DNA of 64,000 bases, taken from positions 3,348,001 through 3,412,000 of the forward strand of contig NZ_CP014209.1 in assembly GCF_001636295.1 (NCBI RefSeq), read 5' to 3'. This stretch comes from Isoptericola dokdonensis DS-3 (GTDB taxonomy: Bacteria; Actinomycetota; Actinomycetes; Actinomycetales; Cellulomonadaceae). Made by a program: the position numbers and the translations under genes. Position 1 is the first letter of the stretch, and each line of letters starts with the position of its first letter. Below the pieces are notes generated by a model. It saw nothing but the letters and a program-made list of their open reading frames with translations, was not told the origin of the DNA and searched no databases. Of the stretch, positions 52,149-63,767 are shown one piece after another.

Positions 52149-53189
52149 GTGGCTGAGCGCGACAAGTCTGAGGATCTCCCGAGCGGGCGACGCGGCGGGC
52201 CCGGACGCAAGACGCGCGAAGCGATCTACGCCCAGCTCGACGACACGCTCGCCGACGTGAACCGGCGACTCGGCGGACTGCCCGCGCCCGCTGAGGCGCG
52301 AGCCATCTGGGACGAGCTGTGGGTGCACGACACGCACAACAGCACGGCGATCGAGGGCAACACCTTGGTGCTCAAGGAGGTTGAGCAACTGCTGCACGAC
52401 GGCCTGGCCGTCGGTAACAAGGAGCTCAAGGACTACATGGAGGTCCGCGGCTATGCCGACGCTGCCACGTGGGTCTACGGCCATGCGTTGGACCCTGTGC
52501 ACGAGGTCGGCACCGAGCTGCTCACCCTCACCGAGGTCCGGCGCCTGCACCAGATGGCGATGACCCCTGTCTGGGATGTCGCGCCGCACCCCGATGCAGG
52601 CCCGAACGAAGGGCCGGGCAGCTTCCGTGAGCACGACATCCACCCGTTCCCGGGCGGCATGCAGCCGCCGTCGTGGGCGCTGGTCGAACCCAGGCTGCGC
52701 GACTGGCTCGACAGGGTGAACGCCATCCGCGAGTCCGACGTGCACGCGATGGAGGCCGCCGCCGCGATCCACGTCGGGTTCGAGCAGGTGCACCCGTTCA
52801 TCGACGGCAACGGGCGCACGGGTCGACTGCTGCTGAACCTCGTGCTGTGCCGCCTCGGCTACGCCCCAGCCATCATCCAGAACCGTGAGCGGCCCAAGTA
52901 TCTGCGCGCGTTGCGTCAGGCCGACGGCGGCAACTTCGGGCCGCTGGGCGAGCAGATCGCGCGGGCCGTGCTGGACAACGTGCTGCGCTTCGTGGTCCCC
53001 GCCCTGGCTGGTCCGGCGCGCCTGGTGCCGCTGGCGTCGCTGGCCTCCCAGGGCCTGACCGTGGTGGCTCTGCGCGCGGCAGTGCAGCGTGGACGACTCA
53101 AGGCCCAGCGGACCGAGAGCGGTCAGTGGCTCTCGAGCAGGGCGTGGGTCGACGAGTACCTCGCCTCGAAGCACAAGCGCGGCGTCTGA
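52149..53189 (+). CDS. Fic-domain protein (probable AMP-transferase, class II autoinhibited)
   Basis: A 346-residue protein. NSTAIEGNTL (residues ~58-67) is the inhibitory (S/T)xxxE(G/N) helix placed N-terminal, so class II. HPFIDGNGRTGRLLLN (~217-232) is the complete Fic core HxFx(D/E)GNGRxxR with catalytic His. Residues ~280-346 form a winged-helix-like tail (LASQGLTVVALRAAVQRGRLKAQR). Such proteins transfer AMP to target proteins. GTG start. Codon use is more AT-tolerant than neighbouring genes (ttg, aag, tct appear). No antitoxin gene is adjacent. Flanked by repeated TTGTCGTGTTGCG, suggesting acquisition. Confidence 0.9.
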   Translation: MAERDKSEDLPSGRRGGPGRKTREAIYAQLDDTLADVNRRLGGLPAPAEARAIWDELWVHDTHNSTAIEGNTLVLKEVEQLLHDGLAVGNKELKDYMEVRGYADAATWVYGHALDPVHEVGTELLTLTEVRRLHQMAMTPVWDVAPHPDAGPNEGPGSFREHDIHPFPGGMQPPSWALVEPRLRDWLDRVNAIRESDVHAMEAAAAIHVGFEQVHPFIDGNGRTGRLLLNLVLCRLGYAPAIIQNRERPKYLRALRQADGGNFGPLGEQIARAVLDNVLRFVVPALAGPARLVPLASLASQGLTVVALRAAVQRGRLKAQRTESGQWLSSRAWVDEYLASKHKRGV

Positions 53190-57284: not shown

Positions 57285-57439
57285 TCCGCATGGCAGCGCG
57301 CATCGCCCGCCCCCTGCGCGATGCGCGCTGTCCCCACTCCCCGGTTGTCGCGAGCGCCGCCGCCCGCGACTGCCCCAGGATCGTCCGGCATCGGCGTGCC
57401 CCGCCCGGACCGGCCCCGCCCGCGGTCTACCGTGCCAAC

Positions 57440-60400
57440 GTGAGAGTGCTGCGCCGATCCTCCGCCGCTGCCGCCGTCCCCGAGACGCCGGCCGAACCAC
57501 CGGCCGTCCCCGACGGCCCCGAGCAGGCCGCCCCGGACGGCCAGGCTCGCGACGCCGCGCACCCCGCACCTGAGCGCCCCGCCGAGCCCGCGCCTGCTCC
57601 CACCCCGCTCGCCGACGCGATCCGCACGTGGCGCTCCGGGCTCGTCGACATGGTCGGCGGCTCCAGCCTCGCCGACGTCGGGCTCCTCGGGGAGGCCGTC
57701 GTCGACCTCTCCACCGCCCACCCGTCCGGCGTCGCCGGGCTGTTCGCCGGGCGCGCCACCCGCCTGTCCAACCTCGTGCGCGAGCCGGCCGTCTTCCCGA
57801 CCGCCCGCCGTCGCGCCCGCACCGTCGTCGTCCGGGCCGCCGAGCACGCCGCCCGCTACGGCATCTCGCCCACCTACCTCGCCATCGGCGTCGCCACCTG
57901 GACCGAGCACCTCGACGCGGCCGGCGAACCCGCCACCGACCGCCGCCACGACCTCACCGCGCTCGCCGAGGTCGCCTCCTCCGCGACCACCGCCAGCGCC
58001 GCCTCCGCGGCCTCCGCCCCGGCGGCCAGCGCGACGTCGGCCACCGCCCACAGCGCCGCCTCCCCGGCGGACCCGGTCGGCACCGGGCAGCCCGAGAGCG
58101 ACGCCCCCGCGGTCACGACGTCCATCCCGATCGTCAGCGTCGCCCGCCAGGAGACCCGCGCGCGCCGCACCGCACCGCCCACCGACGACGAGGTCGTCGG
58201 CACCCGCACCATCCACGCCCCGATCCTGCTGCGCCCCGTCACCCTCACGCCGCGCGGCGAGGGGGAGACCGACTACGAGCTCACCCTGGAGCCCACCGCC
58301 GAGCTCAACCCGCTGCTCGTGCGGGCCCTGCGCGCCCGCGGCGCCGACCTCGACGCGACGGCGCTCGCGGACGCCACCTTCACGGCGGCCGGCTTCGACC
58401 CGGACGACGTGCTGCACCGGGTCGCGCAGATCGCCCGCCAGCACCTCGACGACCTCCGCACCGACCAGCGGGTGCTCGTCGGGACGTTCGTGCACCCCGG
58501 GCAGGCCCTCGTCGACGACCTCGACGAGCTGACGCCGTCACTGGGACGGCACGAGCTGGTCGCCGCGCTCGCGGGCGTGGACGCCTCGCTGGCGAAGGTG
58601 GCCGCCGCCGAGCTGCCCGCGCCGCGGCGGGGGGACGCCGACCCGGCGCGCGAGCGCGGCGTCGGCGACCTCGACCCGGACCAGCGGCACGTCGTCGACG
58701 TCCTCGCGGGCGGCCAGCACGTGTTCGTCGACGCCCCCGTCGGGGCGGACGTCGCGGGGACGGTCGCTGCGGTGGTCGCGGAGGCCGCGGCGGCGGGCCG
58801 GTCGGTCCTGTACGTGACGGGTCACCGGCGCGCGGCGGACAAGCTGGCGCAGCGGCTGGACGAGCTCGGCCTGGAGGGGCTGTCGCTCGACGTGACGCCC
58901 CGGCCGACCTGGCGCGAGGACATGACGGGCCGGCTCCTCGGCGCGATGGCGACGGAGCCGGAGACGCTGGACGTCGCGGGACCGGCCGCGGTGCGCGACG
59001 CCCTCATCGGGGCGCGCGCCCAGCTCGCCGGCTACATCGACGCCCTGCACCTGCGGCGGGCCCCGTGGGGCGTGTCCGCCTACGACGCGCTCCAGGAGCT
59101 GGCGCGGCTCACGTCGGAGCGGCCGGCGCCGGCGACGACGGTCCGGCTGACGTCCGAGGTGACGCTCGCCCTGGACGGCGACCGGCGCCGGACGCTCGCC
59201 GCCGACCTGGAGCGCGCCGCCACGCTGGGCGCCTTCACGCTGCGGCCGAGCGCGACCCCCTGGTTCGGCGCGCACCTGCTGACGATGGACGAGGCGCGCG
59301 ACGCCCTCGCCCGCGTCCGGCGCCTCAAGGAGGCGACGCTCCCGCAGCTGCGCCGGCAGATCGCGTACACCGGCGAGGTGACGGGCCTCGAGGCGCCGAC
59401 GACGATGCGCCGGTGGGGCGAGCAGCTCACCATGCTCGCCGGGATGCGCAGCACGCTCGACGTGTTCCACCCGATGGTGTTCGAGCGGACGGCGACCGAC
59501 CTCGTCCAGGCGACGGCGTCGCGCGCCTGGCGCCGGGAGCACGACGTCGAGATGGGCTGGTTCACGCGACGTCGGCTGCGCAAGCGGGCGAAGGACATGG
59601 TGCGTCCCGGGGTGCGCGTGCCCGACCTCCACGCGGCGCTCACCGACGTGTCCGCGCAGCGCGACGTGTGGGCCGAGCACTCCTCGCGCGGCGGCTGGCC
59701 GACCCTGCCCGAGGGGCTGGCGACCATCGAGGACACCTTCGAGGCGGTCCGCCACGACCTCGACGGCCTGGAGCCCGTGCTCGCCCCGACCACGCACGGC
59801 GCCCGGCTGCTCGACCTCGACCTCGACGCGCTGTCCGAGCGGCTGCACCAGCTCGCGGGCGACCCGGAGTCGCTGGAGACCCTGCCCGAGCGGACGGCGC
59901 TGCTGCGTCGCGCCCGGGACGCGGGCGTCGGCGCCCTCGTCGACGACCTCACCACGCGACGGGTCGCCGCCGAGCTGGTCGCCGCCGAGCTGGACCTCGC
60001 CTGGTGGTCGAGCGTGTTCGAGCAGATCCTCGCCGAGCAGCCGGTGCTCGCCGAGCAGGACGGCGCGGGCCTCGACGCCCTCGCCCGACGGTTCCGCGCC
60101 CTGGACGCCCGGCACCTGGAGTCCCTGTCCGCGCCGGTCCGCGTCGCGGCGCGCGCCCACCTGGGCACCGCGATGCGGGAGGACCGCGAGGGCGCCGAGG
60201 CGATGTTCGCCGAGCTCATCGAGGGCCGCATGACGTCGCTGCGCGACCTCCTCGAGTCCTACGGGGACGTCGCCCGGCGGCTGCGGCCCGTCGTCCTGGC
60301 CACCCCGACCCTGGTGCCGCACCTGCTGCCTGCGCACCGCACCGTCGACCTCGTCGTCCTCGACGCCGTGCAGCACGTGCCCACCGAGGTCGTGCTCCCC

Positions 60401-61639
60401 GCCATCGCGCGCGGCCGCCAGGTCGTCGTCGTCGGCGACCCGCGAGCAGCGTCCGGGAGCAGCGTCGTCGAGCTCGCCGACGTCCTCCCGCGCGTCGCGC
60501 TCCAGCCGCGGGAGAACAACCGCGACCCCGAGCTGACCCGGCTGCTGGCCCGGCACGGCTACGACGGCCTGCTGCGCCCCGCGCCCGTGCCGCGCTCCGA
60601 GGTGCTCGTGCAGCTCGACGTCGTCGACGGCAGCGGCATGCCCGACCCGGTGTCCGGCGCCGTGGAGAGCACCCGCGCCGAGGTGGAGCGCGTCATCGAG
60701 GTGTCGATCGAGCACGCCCTGACCCGCCCCGAGGAGACCCTCGGCATCGTCACCGTCACCGCCGCGCACGCAGACCGCATCCGCGAGGCGCTGCTCGCCG
60801 AGGTGCGCGCCAACCCGGCCCTCGCGCCTTTCTTCTCCGGACGCCGCGCCGAACCGGTCGTCGTCGCCGACATCACCGGCGTGGCCGGGCTCCAGCGCGA
60901 CACGATCCTGCTGTCCGTCGGGTTCGGTCGCACGCCCCACGGACGCGTGCTGCACCGCTTCGGCGTGCTCGGCTCCGACGGCGGCGAGGCCATGCTGCTC
61001 GGCGCCGTCGGCGCCACCCGGCGCCGCCTGCACGTCGTGTCCTGCTTCGACGCGCAGGCCCTCGACGTCGACCGCCTGCGCGGCGGCGGCCCCCGCCTGC
61101 TGCGCGAGCTCCTCGAGCTCGCCGAGCAGCGGTCCGGCCGTGCCGACCAGGTCGAGCTCGGCAACGGCGTCGACGTCGGCCGGGTGCCCGACCGGCTCGT
61201 CACCGACCTCGGCGAACGCCTGTGGAAGCTCGGCTACCTCGTCGAGACCGACTACGGCACCGGCGACGGGGACCACGTGCCCCTCGTCGTCGGGCACCCC
61301 GACCTGCCCGGCGAGATGCTCGTGGCGGTGCTCACCGACGACGCCGCCTACGTCGCCGAACCATCGGTGCGGGTCCGCGACCGCCAGCTCGCCCAACGGC
61401 TCGAACGCCTCGGCTGGACCGTCACCCAGGTGTGGTCCGCCGCCGTGTTCCTCGACCCCGACGGCGAGGCCGACCGTGTGCGCCGCCTCGTCCAGCAGGT
61501 CCGCGACGAGCGCGTCGGCACCACCGGCGGCGTCCCCGTCCCGCCGGAGGTCGTCGTGCCCGTCCTGCCCGACGAGGGCGAGCTGGACCCCATGCCCGAC
61601 GCGTCGGCCGGGACGCCCCCCGACCCCGCCGCCGACTGA
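57440..61639 (+). CDS. DUF4011-helicase-nuclease homologue with degenerate catalytic motifs
   Basis: A 1399-residue protein. Residues ~55-290 follow the DUF4011 outline (YGISPTYLAIGVATW; ILLRPVTLTPRGEGETDYELTLEPTAELNPLL) with an Ala/Ser-rich insertion. Residues ~410-1215 follow the SF1 (Dna2/Upf1-like) helicase outline. There the Walker A is DAPVGADVAGT (~431-441, no GKT), the Walker B is VVLDAVQ (975-976, DA for DE), motif III is VVVGDPRAAS (no Gln), and motif VI is GAVGATRRRLHV (for VALTRARRRLHV). Residues ~1252-1370 recall the Vsr/MTES_1575-like nuclease end, but the usual IDLAV and (E)xDG acids read VPLVV and VLTDD. It is likely a pseudoenzyme. The start could be 57290. Confidence 0.75.
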   Translation: MRVLRRSSAAAAVPETPAEPPAVPDGPEQAAPDGQARDAAHPAPERPAEPAPAPTPLADAIRTWRSGLVDMVGGSSLADVGLLGEAVVDLSTAHPSGVAGLFAGRATRLSNLVREPAVFPTARRRARTVVVRAAEHAARYGISPTYLAIGVATWTEHLDAAGEPATDRRHDLTALAEVASSATTASAASAASAPAASATSATAHSAASPADPVGTGQPESDAPAVTTSIPIVSVARQETRARRTAPPTDDEVVGTRTIHAPILLRPVTLTPRGEGETDYELTLEPTAELNPLLVRALRARGADLDATALADATFTAAGFDPDDVLHRVAQIARQHLDDLRTDQRVLVGTFVHPGQALVDDLDELTPSLGRHELVAALAGVDASLAKVAAAELPAPRRGDADPARERGVGDLDPDQRHVVDVLAGGQHVFVDAPVGADVAGTVAAVVAEAAAAGRSVLYVTGHRRAADKLAQRLDELGLEGLSLDVTPRPTWREDMTGRLLGAMATEPETLDVAGPAAVRDALIGARAQLAGYIDALHLRRAPWGVSAYDALQELARLTSERPAPATTVRLTSEVTLALDGDRRRTLAADLERAATLGAFTLRPSATPWFGAHLLTMDEARDALARVRRLKEATLPQLRRQIAYTGEVTGLEAPTTMRRWGEQLTMLAGMRSTLDVFHPMVFERTATDLVQATASRAWRREHDVEMGWFTRRRLRKRAKDMVRPGVRVPDLHAALTDVSAQRDVWAEHSSRGGWPTLPEGLATIEDTFEAVRHDLDGLEPVLAPTTHGARLLDLDLDALSERLHQLAGDPESLETLPERTALLRRARDAGVGALVDDLTTRRVAAELVAAELDLAWWSSVFEQILAEQPVLAEQDGAGLDALARRFRALDARHLESLSAPVRVAARAHLGTAMREDREGAEAMFAELIEGRMTSLRDLLESYGDVARRLRPVVLATPTLVPHLLPAHRTVDLVVLDAVQHVPTEVVLPAIARGRQVVVVGDPRAASGSSVVELADVLPRVALQPRENNRDPELTRLLARHGYDGLLRPAPVPRSEVLVQLDVVDGSGMPDPVSGAVESTRAEVERVIEVSIEHALTRPEETLGIVTVTAAHADRIREALLAEVRANPALAPFFSGRRAEPVVVADITGVAGLQRDTILLSVGFGRTPHGRVLHRFGVLGSDGGEAMLLGAVGATRRRLHVVSCFDAQALDVDRLRGGGPRLLRELLELAEQRSGRADQVELGNGVDVGRVPDRLVTDLGERLWKLGYLVETDYGTGDGDHVPLVVGHPDLPGEMLVAVLTDDAAYVAEPSVRVRDRQLAQRLERLGWTVTQVWSAAVFLDPDGEADRVRRLVQQVRDERVGTTGGVPVPPEVVVPVLPDEGELDPMPDASAGTPPDPAAD

Positions 61640-61653
61640 CCCTCGTCCCGCCG

Positions 61654-61722
61654 CGAGGTAGTACCGCAGGTCGTGAGGTCGTACCCCCGGGGTACGACCT
61701 CACGACCTGCGGTACTACCTCG
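61654..61722. repeat. Inverted repeat E after the helicase-like gene
   Basis: Perfect 34-bp arms (61654-61687 and 61689-61722) around a single C, starting CGAGGTAGTACCGCAGGTCG, 15 nt after the stop. Almost a perfect 69-bp palindrome. Confidence 0.93.
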
Positions 61723-61762: not shown

Positions 61763-61969
61763 GTGAGCGAGCAGCAGGACCGGGAGCCCGTGCAGACGCC
61801 TGCCGGCACCGAGCCGGAGAACACGGCGGCGCGGCGCAGGCGTGGCTCGCGGCGTGTCGTGCGGCGGGGGACCGAGGCGCAGACCGTCTGGGGCGTCACG
61901 CCCGACGAGGCCGGCGGGCACGGGTCCAACGACGACCGACTGCAGCAGGACGTGCCGCCGCACTGGTGA
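61763..61969 (+). CDS. Small conserved-looking protein ending DRLQQDVPPHW
   Basis: A 68-residue hydrophilic protein: an acidic N-terminus (SEQQDREPVQTPAGTEPEN), a basic core RRRRGSRRVVRRG, and the tail VWGVTPDEAGGHGSNDDRLQQDVPPHW. Tails of the form DDRL..D.PPHW are familiar from small actinobacterial proteins of unknown role. The GTG is 6 nt after GACAAT, a leaderless pattern. It lies between two long inverted repeats, downstream of the helicase-like gene. Confidence 0.72.
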   Translation: MSEQQDREPVQTPAGTEPENTAARRRRGSRRVVRRGTEAQTVWGVTPDEAGGHGSNDDRLQQDVPPHW

Positions 61970-62138: not shown

Positions 62139-62546
62139 TCAGGCGCGGCGGTTCTGCTCGGCGAGCAGGTCGCGGATCTCGGCGAGCAGCACGACGTTCG
62201 GCTCGGGCACCGGGGCGGGCTCCGGCTCCTTGCCGCGGGCGCGACGCTCGGCGAGCTTGTTCATCGGGAACACGATGCAGAAGTACAGGGCCGCCGCCAC
62301 GAGGAGGAAGTTCAGGACGGCGTCCAGGAACAGGCCGATGCTGAAATCAGCCCCGTTGATCTTGAAAGCCCAGACCTTCGTGAGGTCCGGCTCGCCGAAG
62401 ATGGCGGCGATCAGTGGGAAGAGAATCCCCTCGGTCAGGGCGCTCACCACCGTAGCGAAGGCCGCGCCGATGACGACGGCGACGGCGAGGTCGATGACGT
62501 TGCCGCGCATGATGAACGTCTTGAACCCGTCGAGCATGTTTCTCAC
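62139..62546 (-). CDS. mscL: Large-conductance mechanosensitive channel
   Basis: A 135-residue MscL. FKTFIMRGNVIDLAVAVVIGAAFATVVSAL is the first helix with the gate, FSIGLFLDAVLNFLLVAAALYFCIVFPMNKLAERR the second helix and linker, and VVLLAEIRDLLAEQNRR the C-terminal bundle. It releases osmolytes on hypo-osmotic shock. The GTG at 62546 gives VRNMLDGF; it was chosen over the ATG three codons later because GGAGGAG lies 7 nt before the GTG. Confidence 0.95.
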   Translation of the reverse strand: MRNMLDGFKTFIMRGNVIDLAVAVVIGAAFATVVSALTEGILFPLIAAIFGEPDLTKVWAFKINGADFSIGLFLDAVLNFLLVAAALYFCIVFPMNKLAERRARGKEPEPAPVPEPNVVLLAEIRDLLAEQNRRA

Positions 62547-62643: not shown

Positions 62644-63282
62644 TCAGGGGACGAGCACGGCGACGACGGCTCCCCAGCCGGACGCGCCCGAGACGGCGGC
62701 CGCCTCGTCCGGGTCGACGGCGACCAGCGTGACGTGCTCGCCGCCGTCGGCCGCGACGCCGCCCAGCAGCCCGCCGGCGGCCTCCGCACCGGCCACGGGT
62801 CCGGGGAGCACGAGGGCGCGCCGGGCGAGGGTGCGGCCGCGGTCGTCCGCGGCGAGGAGGTCGACGCGGTCGCCGGGGGCGAGCCACGAGGACTCCACGA
62901 GGCCCACGGCGACGACGACGGTGCCACGGGGCGCCTGGCCGCCGAGCCCGCCGCCGGTGACGAGGTCGGGGTGCAGCGGCGTCCCGGCGGGCAGCCGCAC
63001 GGGGGAGGACCGTCCGACGACGTCGGCGGTGTCGGTCGTCAGGGTGTGCGCGAGCCGGGCGTCGACGACGACGGTGGTCAGGTCCGCGGCGCGCAGCTCG
63101 GTCCCGGCGGGGACGGCACGGCGGGTGACGACGACGTCGGCGGTCGGCGGGGGCGGCGGCCGCAACGCCTGCACGGCGGTGGTGGCGGCGAGGCCGCAGC
63201 ACAGCGCGGCGACGACGAAGCGGCCGCGCCAGGCCAGCAGGTGCAGGCGGCGGAGCAGGCGCTCGCGGGTGGGTCGGGACAT
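62644..63282 (-). CDS. SAF-domain protein (CpaB/RcpC-like)
   Basis: A 212-residue protein with one N-terminal membrane helix (~21-40, FVVAALCCGLAATTAVQAL), a Pro-rich spacer, and an SAF domain (~48-110: VVVTRRAVPAGTELRAADLTTVVVDARLAHTL, SSPVRLPAGTPLHPDLV). The remainder (GTVVVAVGLVESSWLAPGDRVDLLA) is the RcpC/CpaB continuation. CpaB helps assemble Flp/tad pili, but no tad genes are in view, so the role is open. Confidence 0.85.
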   Translation of the reverse strand: MSRPTRERLLRRLHLLAWRGRFVVAALCCGLAATTAVQALRPPPPPTADVVVTRRAVPAGTELRAADLTTVVVDARLAHTLTTDTADVVGRSSPVRLPAGTPLHPDLVTGGGLGGQAPRGTVVVAVGLVESSWLAPGDRVDLLAADDRGRTLARRALVLPGPVAGAEAAGGLLGGVAADGGEHVTLVAVDPDEAAAVSGASGWGAVVAVLVP

Positions 63283-63375: not shown

Positions 63376-63693
63376 TCAGGACGCGGCGGCCTTCGAGGAA
63401 CCCGACGAGCCGGAGGAACCGCCGGTCGACGACCCCCCGGACGTGGAACCGCCGGATGACGAGGCGTCCGACGACCCGGACTTCGAGCCCGACGACCCGA
63501 CCGTCGACGACGACCCGGAACGGGAGTCGGTGCGGTAGAAGCCGGAACCCTTGAACGTCACGCCGACCGAGCCGAACTGCTTGCGCAGGCGGCCCGCGCA
63601 CTCCGGGCAGACGGTGAGCGCGTCGTCGGTGAACGCCTGATGGATGTCGAAGGCGTGGCCGCAGTCGGCGCACCGGTAGGCGTAGGTGGGCAC
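63376..63693 (-). CDS. FmdB-type zinc-ribbon protein with Ser/Gly-rich tail
   Basis: A 105-residue protein. Residues 1-52 are the FmdB/CxxC_CxxC_SSSS regulatory-type zinc ribbon: PTYAYRCADCGHAFDIHQAF with the first CxxC and LTVCPECAGRLRKQFGSVGVTFKGSGFYRTD with the second. Residues ~55-105 are a low-complexity Ser/Gly/Thr tail, as in other actinobacterial members. The GTG follows AGGAGAG. Function unknown; a regulatory role is presumed for the family. Confidence 0.93.
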   Translation of the reverse strand: MPTYAYRCADCGHAFDIHQAFTDDALTVCPECAGRLRKQFGSVGVTFKGSGFYRTDSRSGSSSTVGSSGSKSGSSDASSSGGSTSGGSSTGGSSGSSGSSKAAAS

Positions 63694-63767
63694 GGGAATC
63701 TCTCCTCGAAGGGCTGGCACTCAGATCATGCGACTGCTAATCATACGCGGGCGGTAGTCTCGCCTGC

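Follow-up and report, generated by a model that had tools for sequence, protein, structure and literature searches.

A core helicase-nuclease homologue of the Actinomycetales that may repeatedly have become a non-catalytic scaffold

Introduction

Proteins of the MTES_1575 type unite a superfamily 1 (SF1) helicase and a Vsr-type restriction endonuclease in one chain and, in the part of the source at hand, also feature HEPN, transglutaminase and two winged helix-turn-helix (wHTH) domains; 'active', as used in the table given there, is taken to mean the HEPN domain, and dead core forms are not mentioned in that part (PMC3710099). The subject of the present study, a gene for a 1399-residue protein with a DUF4011-like, an SF1 helicase-like and a Vsr-like region, lies in a stretch of 64,000 nucleotides of Isoptericola dokdonensis DS-3 (contig NZ_CP014209.1, positions 3,348,001 to 3,412,000; this whole stretch is called the window hereafter). 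The protein resembles the MTES_1575 type in that its nuclease region passes the Pfam cut-off of this family (PF18741; 48.1 bits versus 38.2, residues 1258-1348), which is its sole Pfam domain over cut-off. A core DUF4011 gene is also found in Pseudomonas aeruginosa, where it flanks cDHS1 and is used as a flank marker; as far as the consulted part of that paper goes, it is large, core and fixed in its locus like the window gene, but it belongs to another phylum and its catalytic state is not discussed there (PMC10250203).

The nearest curated relatives of the window protein are anti-phage proteins. ProA (NF058533) and the PADLOC candidate system PDC-S37 are homologous to it across helicase and nuclease, but ProA comprises about 2000 amino acids (aa), retains intact helicase motifs and is accessory, while Hhe (NF042953), a DUF4011 anti-phage protein, is a distant homologue that does not belong to the same family. 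With respect to the way of working, the closest parallel is offered by RecC and AddB, where an active partner relies on a dead SF1 helicase and/or nuclease fold for the reading of DNA. The window protein may likewise employ dead folds of this kind in a non-catalytic job; however, RecC and AddB are SF1A proteins in a heterodimer with an active partner, whereas the relatives of the window protein are UPF1/DNA2/SMUBP-2-like and no paralogous partner was found. The parallel is an analogy, not a family assignment.

Orthologues with intact motifs occur in Angustibacter (L052) and Pedococcus (L046, 93% identical to P0169; such L, P, G and f numbers are our own handles), both named 'AAA domain-containing protein'. 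They share with the window protein the same neighbours, the same domain order and 37-39% identity over the length, and most of those listed match DUF4011, AAA_11, AAA_12 and MTES_1575 in Pfam. Unlike the window protein, they keep GPPGTGK[ST], the Walker B DE, the first Arg of motif VI and the nuclease Asp. Among the eight intact copies of the census presented below, the motif III Gln is found in seven (Leu in L050), as are the second motif VI Arg (Lys in L260) and the nuclease Glu (Asp in L050). On balance, we favour the view that repeated conversion in place has turned a DUF4011/SF1 (UPF1-like)/Vsr helicase-nuclease into a non-catalytic scaffold. No treatment of this dead core family was found among the open-access papers searched, subscription papers being mostly outside the search.

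Motifs and fold of the window protein

The reading frame, which stays open to 61639, has two possible starts, an ATG at 57290 (1449 aa) and a GTG at 57440 (1399 aa); the latter aligns with the start of the Isoptericola jiangsuensis protein P0001, the closest among the matches listed (92% identical). Within the 1399-residue frame, the domain order given in a preliminary description of this DNA was confirmed, namely that of a DUF4011/SF1-helicase/Vsr-nuclease homologue with dead catalytic motifs. The DUF4011-like segment reaches 13.3 bits, below the Pfam cut-off of 22.2 (PF13195), and this domain was matched at E<=0.01 in 6 of 12 orthologues.

Alignment with the intact orthologues places V438, within the P-loop stretch D431 to T441, in the column of the P-loop lysine, L-D975-A976 against the D-E of Walker B, and an Ala in the Gln column of motif III, so that what had been read from the letters for these three motifs was borne out. 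For motif VI, the supposed loss of the core held for the first Arg, which is replaced by Ala, but not for the second, which is retained. Similarly, the nuclease acids had been described as absent, and this applies to two of three: with the catalytic Asp and Glu positions assigned by what we take to be the Vsr/PD-(D/E)xK motif, the presumed Asp is Pro1281 and the presumed Glu is Leu, whereas the second Asp, D1300, is present. Since the Glu column holds Leu or Met in all seven ProA-type proteins as well, its replacement is no mark of this lineage or of loss, and only the change of the Asp is clear. The combination of Asp and Glu that characterizes an active nuclease of this type is thus missing from the window protein, as are the Walker B D-E, the motif III Gln and the pair of motif VI Arg of an active SF1 helicase (D-A, A and A/R instead).

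Intact ATP-binding residues elsewhere in the chain would have spoken against this picture. A pattern scan of the full window protein found no P-loop of the form GxxxxGK[ST], nor any [AG]xxxxGK[ST] or GK[ST]. Among the orthologues, seven lysine-less copies do match [AG]xxxxGK[ST] outside the loop; five of these matches fall at one place, 16 residues on and just before motif Ia, and thus do not represent a P-loop. As a separate observation, D1300 occurs in 161 of 161 aligned sequences and in all 126 lysine-less copies from the order with a letter there, although the residues presumed to act with it in catalysis have often disappeared.

The descent of the degenerate region was examined by profile comparison with SF1 helicases. 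In hhalign, the profile of the dead helicase region matched that of the intact orthologues with probability 100 and E 3e-151 (39% identity, 825 columns), and the latter profile reaches SMUBP-2, DNA2, UPF1 and SEN1 in the PDB. The dead profile by itself finds UPF1 only at E 0.19, and it matches the ProA-type profile at E 5.9e-43. Judged by profile similarity to intact relatives, the region is a homologue of SF1 helicases and is predicted to share their fold.

Distribution and gene neighbourhood

A profile built from 12 orthologues (A1) was searched in 149 genomes of the order Actinomycetales, which includes Isoptericola and Bifidobacterium, with further named orthologues from Actinomyces, Cellulomonas and others. 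It matched 146 genomes at E<=1e-60 and, by hand count, 140 at E<=1e-120; of the nine genomes outside the census, six gave weak matches and three none, the latter being drafts of 170-580 contigs. Even G053 (family f4), whose genome measures 0.8 Mb, has the gene, and nearly all sampled genomes carry it as an open frame, mostly of 1200-1700 residues. Of 197 genomes drawn from across the class, 41 matched at 1e-20. Sixteen of these belong to the order; the remaining 25 comprise 17 full-length copies (15 in f38 and one each in f25 and f45) and eight partial or ProA-like matches. The large protein is no peculiarity of a single genome; its gene belongs to the core set of the order.

Its surroundings are mostly constant as well. 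Of 155 loci examined, which are not all from different genomes since some named records and G-handles represent the same strain, 147 had at least 2.5 kb downstream; a relative of mscL, SAF or fmdB lies within 6 kb downstream in 143 of them, and at least two of these genes in 113. The four loci without such neighbours belong to f11 (two), f14 and f20. Because the same neighbours surround dead copies and the intact copies L046, L047, L048, L050, L052 and L053, intact and dead copies are best linked by orthology, not paralogy. Outside the order, the neighbours recur in five f38 loci and are missing from one intact f45 locus and one f25 locus; the five f38 loci suggest that the locus predates the order.

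The distribution bears on whether the protein is an anti-phage decoy or sensor, which would sense or titrate phage nucleic acid or anti-defence factors without catalysis. Its best curated relatives point in this direction, since ProA, PDC-S37 and Hhe score the window protein with 359.2, 344 and 167.5 bits, respectively. These values lie far below the cut-offs of 1500 for ProA and 2000 for Hhe, the PDC-S37 score denotes distant kinship, and a near-universal gene at a fixed locus that is kept in a 0.8-Mb genome is unlike accessory defence genes; ProA, by contrast, exceeds its cut-off in just nine of the 149 genomes. An anti-phage role of this kind appears improbable.

Changes of the P-loop lysine

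The catalytic state was followed through a census of the 140 genomes of the order from which an orthologue was extracted, in some cases as a fragment, with columns called from automatic alignments and later rows added to an earlier alignment. The P-loop lysine is kept in eight genomes and lost in 131, one fragment having no letter there. Walker B DE is found in eight and the nuclease D with [DE] in 26, while P-loop, Walker B and nuclease occur together in the eight lysine-keeping genomes and in no others. These belong to f17 (six of nine genomes, with Pedococcus) and f5 (two of three, with Angustibacter). Elsewhere the replacement of the lysine is specific to the family, being Gly (9/9 in f19), Ala (9/9 in f8 and 9/9 in f14), Gln (8/10 in f6) or, outside the order, Arg (15/15 in f38), and it varies within f11, f13, f3 and f9. 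Among listed relatives, GxPG[TSA]GK[ST] occurs in 115 of 120 for the intact Angustibacter protein (itself included), in 0 of 120 for the window protein and in 0 of 120 for Bifidobacterium; the Bifidobacterium copies listed are nonetheless often named 'helicase', as is that of Bifidobacterium pseudolongum (G110, f4).

For tree building, the motif columns were cut out, and ProA-type proteins, whose P-loops are all intact, served as root. The minimum number of lysine changes was four in trees that held fewer intact rows, namely with 70 rows, with 75 rows (C20 model, quick search) and with 55 rows (careful search), and seven in a quick search of 61 rows, 36 of them with lysine, to which relatives of the Angustibacter protein (26 of the 120) had been added, four of these chosen because they are lysine-less. 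A 33-row clade with the family of the window and Bifidobacterium is wholly lysine-less (support 100/99), and more lysine-less rows stand outside it in f38, f25, f17 and f5. On these trees, the lysine state is found to have changed several separate times, and the intact outgroup and the nesting of the copies indicate that the changes were presumably losses.

Possible intermediates occur in living species. In P0134 and P0136, only the lysine, replaced by Thr, differs from intact relatives in 20 motif columns, not counting a nuclease column in which intact copies themselves differ; in P0175 (Lys to Arg) and P0207 (Lys to Ala), the first Gly of the loop has also changed, to Ala. All four retain DE, the motif III Gln, both motif VI Arg and the nuclease D-E-D. 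P0126, the fifth protein in which the P-loop pattern is missing, is shorter and has no P-loop stretch, and was excluded. Proteins that lack the lysine but keep Walker B and the nuclease acids would fit one fixed conformation rather than a motor.

ATP might still be bound, and perhaps slowly hydrolysed, through the remaining loop or other residues. Such unorthodox nucleotide binding would be in keeping with a P-loop backbone like PGTGxT in most copies of f6, f7, f8, f14, f15 and f19, with the Lys to Arg change in all 15 f38 genomes, and with the second motif VI Arg, which is kept in 109 of the 131 lysine-less copies. In the clade of the window, however, the loop is rewritten (DAPxGxD), the Walker B Glu, the motif III Gln and the first motif VI Arg are gone, and the window protein has no other GK[ST] to take over, which makes this explanation rather unlikely.

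Selection on the lysine-less copies

Slow decay of a gene that had already become useless would agree with the many changes of the lysine state. Conservation tells otherwise. In 121 proteins, namely the window protein and 120 listed of 527 homologues, the letters of the replacement motif D-A-P-x-G-x-D have majority shares of 1.00, 0.93, 1.00, 0.99 and 1.00, so that the degenerate motif is itself conserved. Mean conservation in the same set is 0.84 for the pseudo-nuclease, the most conserved region, 0.80 for the N-terminal block and 0.78 for the 2A region, compared with 0.71 for residues 56-1346.

The ratio of nonsynonymous to synonymous substitution rates (dN/dS), estimated by NG86 with dS over 1 in three pairs, ranged from 0.106 to 0.268 in 19 lysine-less pairs and was 0.278 and 0.244 in two intact pairs; purifying selection is present in all 21 close pairs tested, lysine-less and intact alike. 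For the pseudo-nuclease alone, values of 0.108 (Q-L038), 0.047 (Q-L040), 0 (L132-L143) and 0.048 (L092-L094) were obtained. The dead nuclease as the best conserved region, the low ratios and the long frames, kept even in a reduced genome, leave slow decay as a disfavoured and scarcely credible alternative. With 131 of 140 copies devoid of the lysine and every tested pair under purifying selection, the preliminary view of a conserved pseudoenzyme rather than simple decay is supported.

The pattern of loss was scored over 78 columns that are invariant in nine intact orthologues and seven ProA-type proteins. Of the 131 lysine-less copies, in which the lysine column stands at 0% by construction, 2% still have the Walker B Glu, 4% the motif Ia Lys, 5% the WHYRS His and 6% the WHYRS Ser. 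On the other hand, 25 of the 78 columns are kept in at least 91%, and D970, D1300, G150, G1217 and W1326 in every lysine-less copy with a letter there; in the N-terminal block, W64, G141, G150 and W154 are kept in at least 96% of the lysine-less orthologues. On the whole, the loss hits catalysis and spares residues of the fold.

Search for an active partner

The preliminary description had considered the protein as a possible partner of an active homologue, and dead/active pairs such as RecC with RecB are known elsewhere. In the 3.83-Mb genome, a single contig, searches with NF058533, PF18741 and the orthologue profile did not turn up another gene of this kind; they yielded weak hits only (one 37-residue match and two weak MTES_1575 matches). 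Across the order, besides the nine genomes with a ProA-type protein over the family cut-off, eight more have long matches of 980-1496 bits below it. A structural role beside an active paralogue within one cell is thus unsupported in this genome and seems very unlikely; an active partner of another family is possible. Scattered in the order are also ProA-like open frames (L024, L025, L026 and others), with lengths of about 1800-2700 aa.

The small downstream gene and other features of the locus

Directly downstream of the large gene and on the same strand (Table 1) lies a small gene whose product ends in a tail of the pattern [DE][DE]R-L-x-x-[DE]-[VRK]-P-P-H-W (DDRLQQDVPPHW in the window). In 231 loci, which again do not all come from different genomes, a tail gene was found within 1.5 kb in 150, the tail formed the C-terminus of the large protein itself in 30, and neither applied to 51, which include contig ends and short flanks, two opposite-strand cases and all ten f4 loci under the strict pattern. 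Together, 180 of the 231 loci have the tail either fused to the large protein or encoded behind it; a second script with looser limits found it in 185. The degenerate pattern occurs once in the window genome and 0 times in the control. A tail profile matched 136 of 149 genomes from the order and 143 of 197 from the class, in nearly every case with a single hit; many of the class matches are weak. No Pfam match over cut-off and no NCBIfam match was obtained for the tail.

Two simpler descriptions of this gene were rejected. Its absence from the Bifidobacterium family f4, suggested by the strict pattern (0/10 loci), is contradicted by weak profile matches in seven of ten genomes, and those checked (G003, G020, G068) adjoin the large gene. 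An exclusive tie to the large gene was ruled out by class genomes that carry the tail without it; the tail lies near mscL or fmdB in two of these (L339, L326), and no mscL or fmdB neighbour was seen within the short stretch examined in L337 and L340. The tail gene is wider in distribution than the large gene. Because the genes are adjacent or the tail is fused, the arrangement suggests, without proving it, that the large protein and the tail protein act together.

Table 1. Features of the locus, in positions of the window
Feature	Position	Strand	Remarks
Pseudo-helicase/pseudo-nuclease gene	57440..61639	+	GTG start, 1399 aa
Conserved N-terminal block, residues 57-156	57608..57907	+	Column conservation
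DUF4011-like segment, residues 255-392	58202..58615	+	Sub-threshold in Pfam
Dead P-loop DAPVGADVAGT, residues 431-441	58730..58762	+	No lysine; motif alignment
Dead Walker B LDAVQ, residues 974-978	60359..60373	+	Motif alignment
Helicase 2A-like region, residues 1061-1225	60620..61114	+	Widely kept GxGRTPHGRVLHRFG, half-lost motif VI
MTES_1575/Vsr-like pseudo-nuclease, residues 1251-1346	61190..61477	+	Asp to Pro1281; D1300 and W1326 kept
Small tail gene	61763..61969	+	68 aa from chosen GTG start, ends SNDDRLQQDVPPHW; conserved downstream neighbour
mscL	62139..62540	-	Convergent conserved neighbour, start approximate; family match and locus comparison
SAF/CpaB-like gene	62644..63282	-	Conserved neighbour; presumed label
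FmdB-like gene	63376..63720	-	Conserved neighbour; presumed label

Some further observations were made. The large proteins L042, L045, L052, L092 and L111, which come from several families, share a second C-terminal motif, W(I/L)xSDxxxR...LGxxRRGxRIDAA, which was not found in the window protein and which, tested in L052, gave no convincing Pfam match. Between the large and the small gene lies a perfect 34-base inverted repeat with a 1-base spacer (61654-61722); related palindromes occur at eight places in the genome, this one included. A gene for a Fic/DOC-domain protein is located at 52149-53189 (+), near genes with ZnuA and ABC-3 domains.

Discussion

Under the favoured reading, an ancestral helicase-nuclease would have been inherited vertically beside mscL, SAF and fmdB and would repeatedly have lost, in place, the residues of ATP turnover and, in many lineages, the nuclease Asp as well. 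The surviving protein would work without ATP turnover, as a large scaffold on nucleic acid or on a partner bound to nucleic acid, and binding might proceed through the kept 1A/2A surface together with the R, D and W positions that the dead nuclease has preserved. The small protein with the PPHW tail could be a partner or provide a docking peptide. Since the protein is kept intact and conserved without catalytic residues, its job probably needs no enzyme activity.

Several points weigh against this reading. Parsimony, here used without a gain/loss model, counts changes and not their direction, and the largest lysine-less clade counts as one event; furthermore, the 61-row tree was a quick search to which the four intermediates were added for their missing motif. 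In f6, f7, f8, f14, f15, f19 and f38, the P-loop apart from the lysine persists in most copies (as PGTGxT or a close variant), so that nucleotide binding is possible there, and 18 of the 131 lysine-less copies retain the nuclease D with D/E (the 26 minus the eight intact), some of which may still cut. Selection does not single out the pseudo-nuclease in every pair: the 2A region is lower in Q-L038 (0.099), as are the N-terminal block (0.026) and the P-loop region (0.046) in L092-L094. Among the invariant columns, some that are not known as catalytic have also been lost (V442 kept in 7%, G1188 in 10%). Moreover, fold and binding surface are derived from sequence, the tail protein is found in class genomes without the large gene, and adjacent genes may fuse by chance.

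A more specific version of the scaffold reading can be put forward tentatively, as a possibility that is open to considerable doubt. In this version, the housekeeping helicase-nuclease of the order would have been switched at least seven times, and would still be being switched, lysine first, to a non-catalytic machine, because a non-hydrolysing clamp would be its useful state; it would act with a small actinobacterial protein that docks onto it through the C-terminal peptide DDRLxxDVPPHW.

In general, pseudoenzymes are known as single cases beside an active paralogue. Here, the change would strike the gene itself, in place and several times, with intermediates in living species and the gene still near-universal in its order. 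Hence, the family may constitute a natural experiment on the role of a helicase-nuclease once it is no longer an enzyme.

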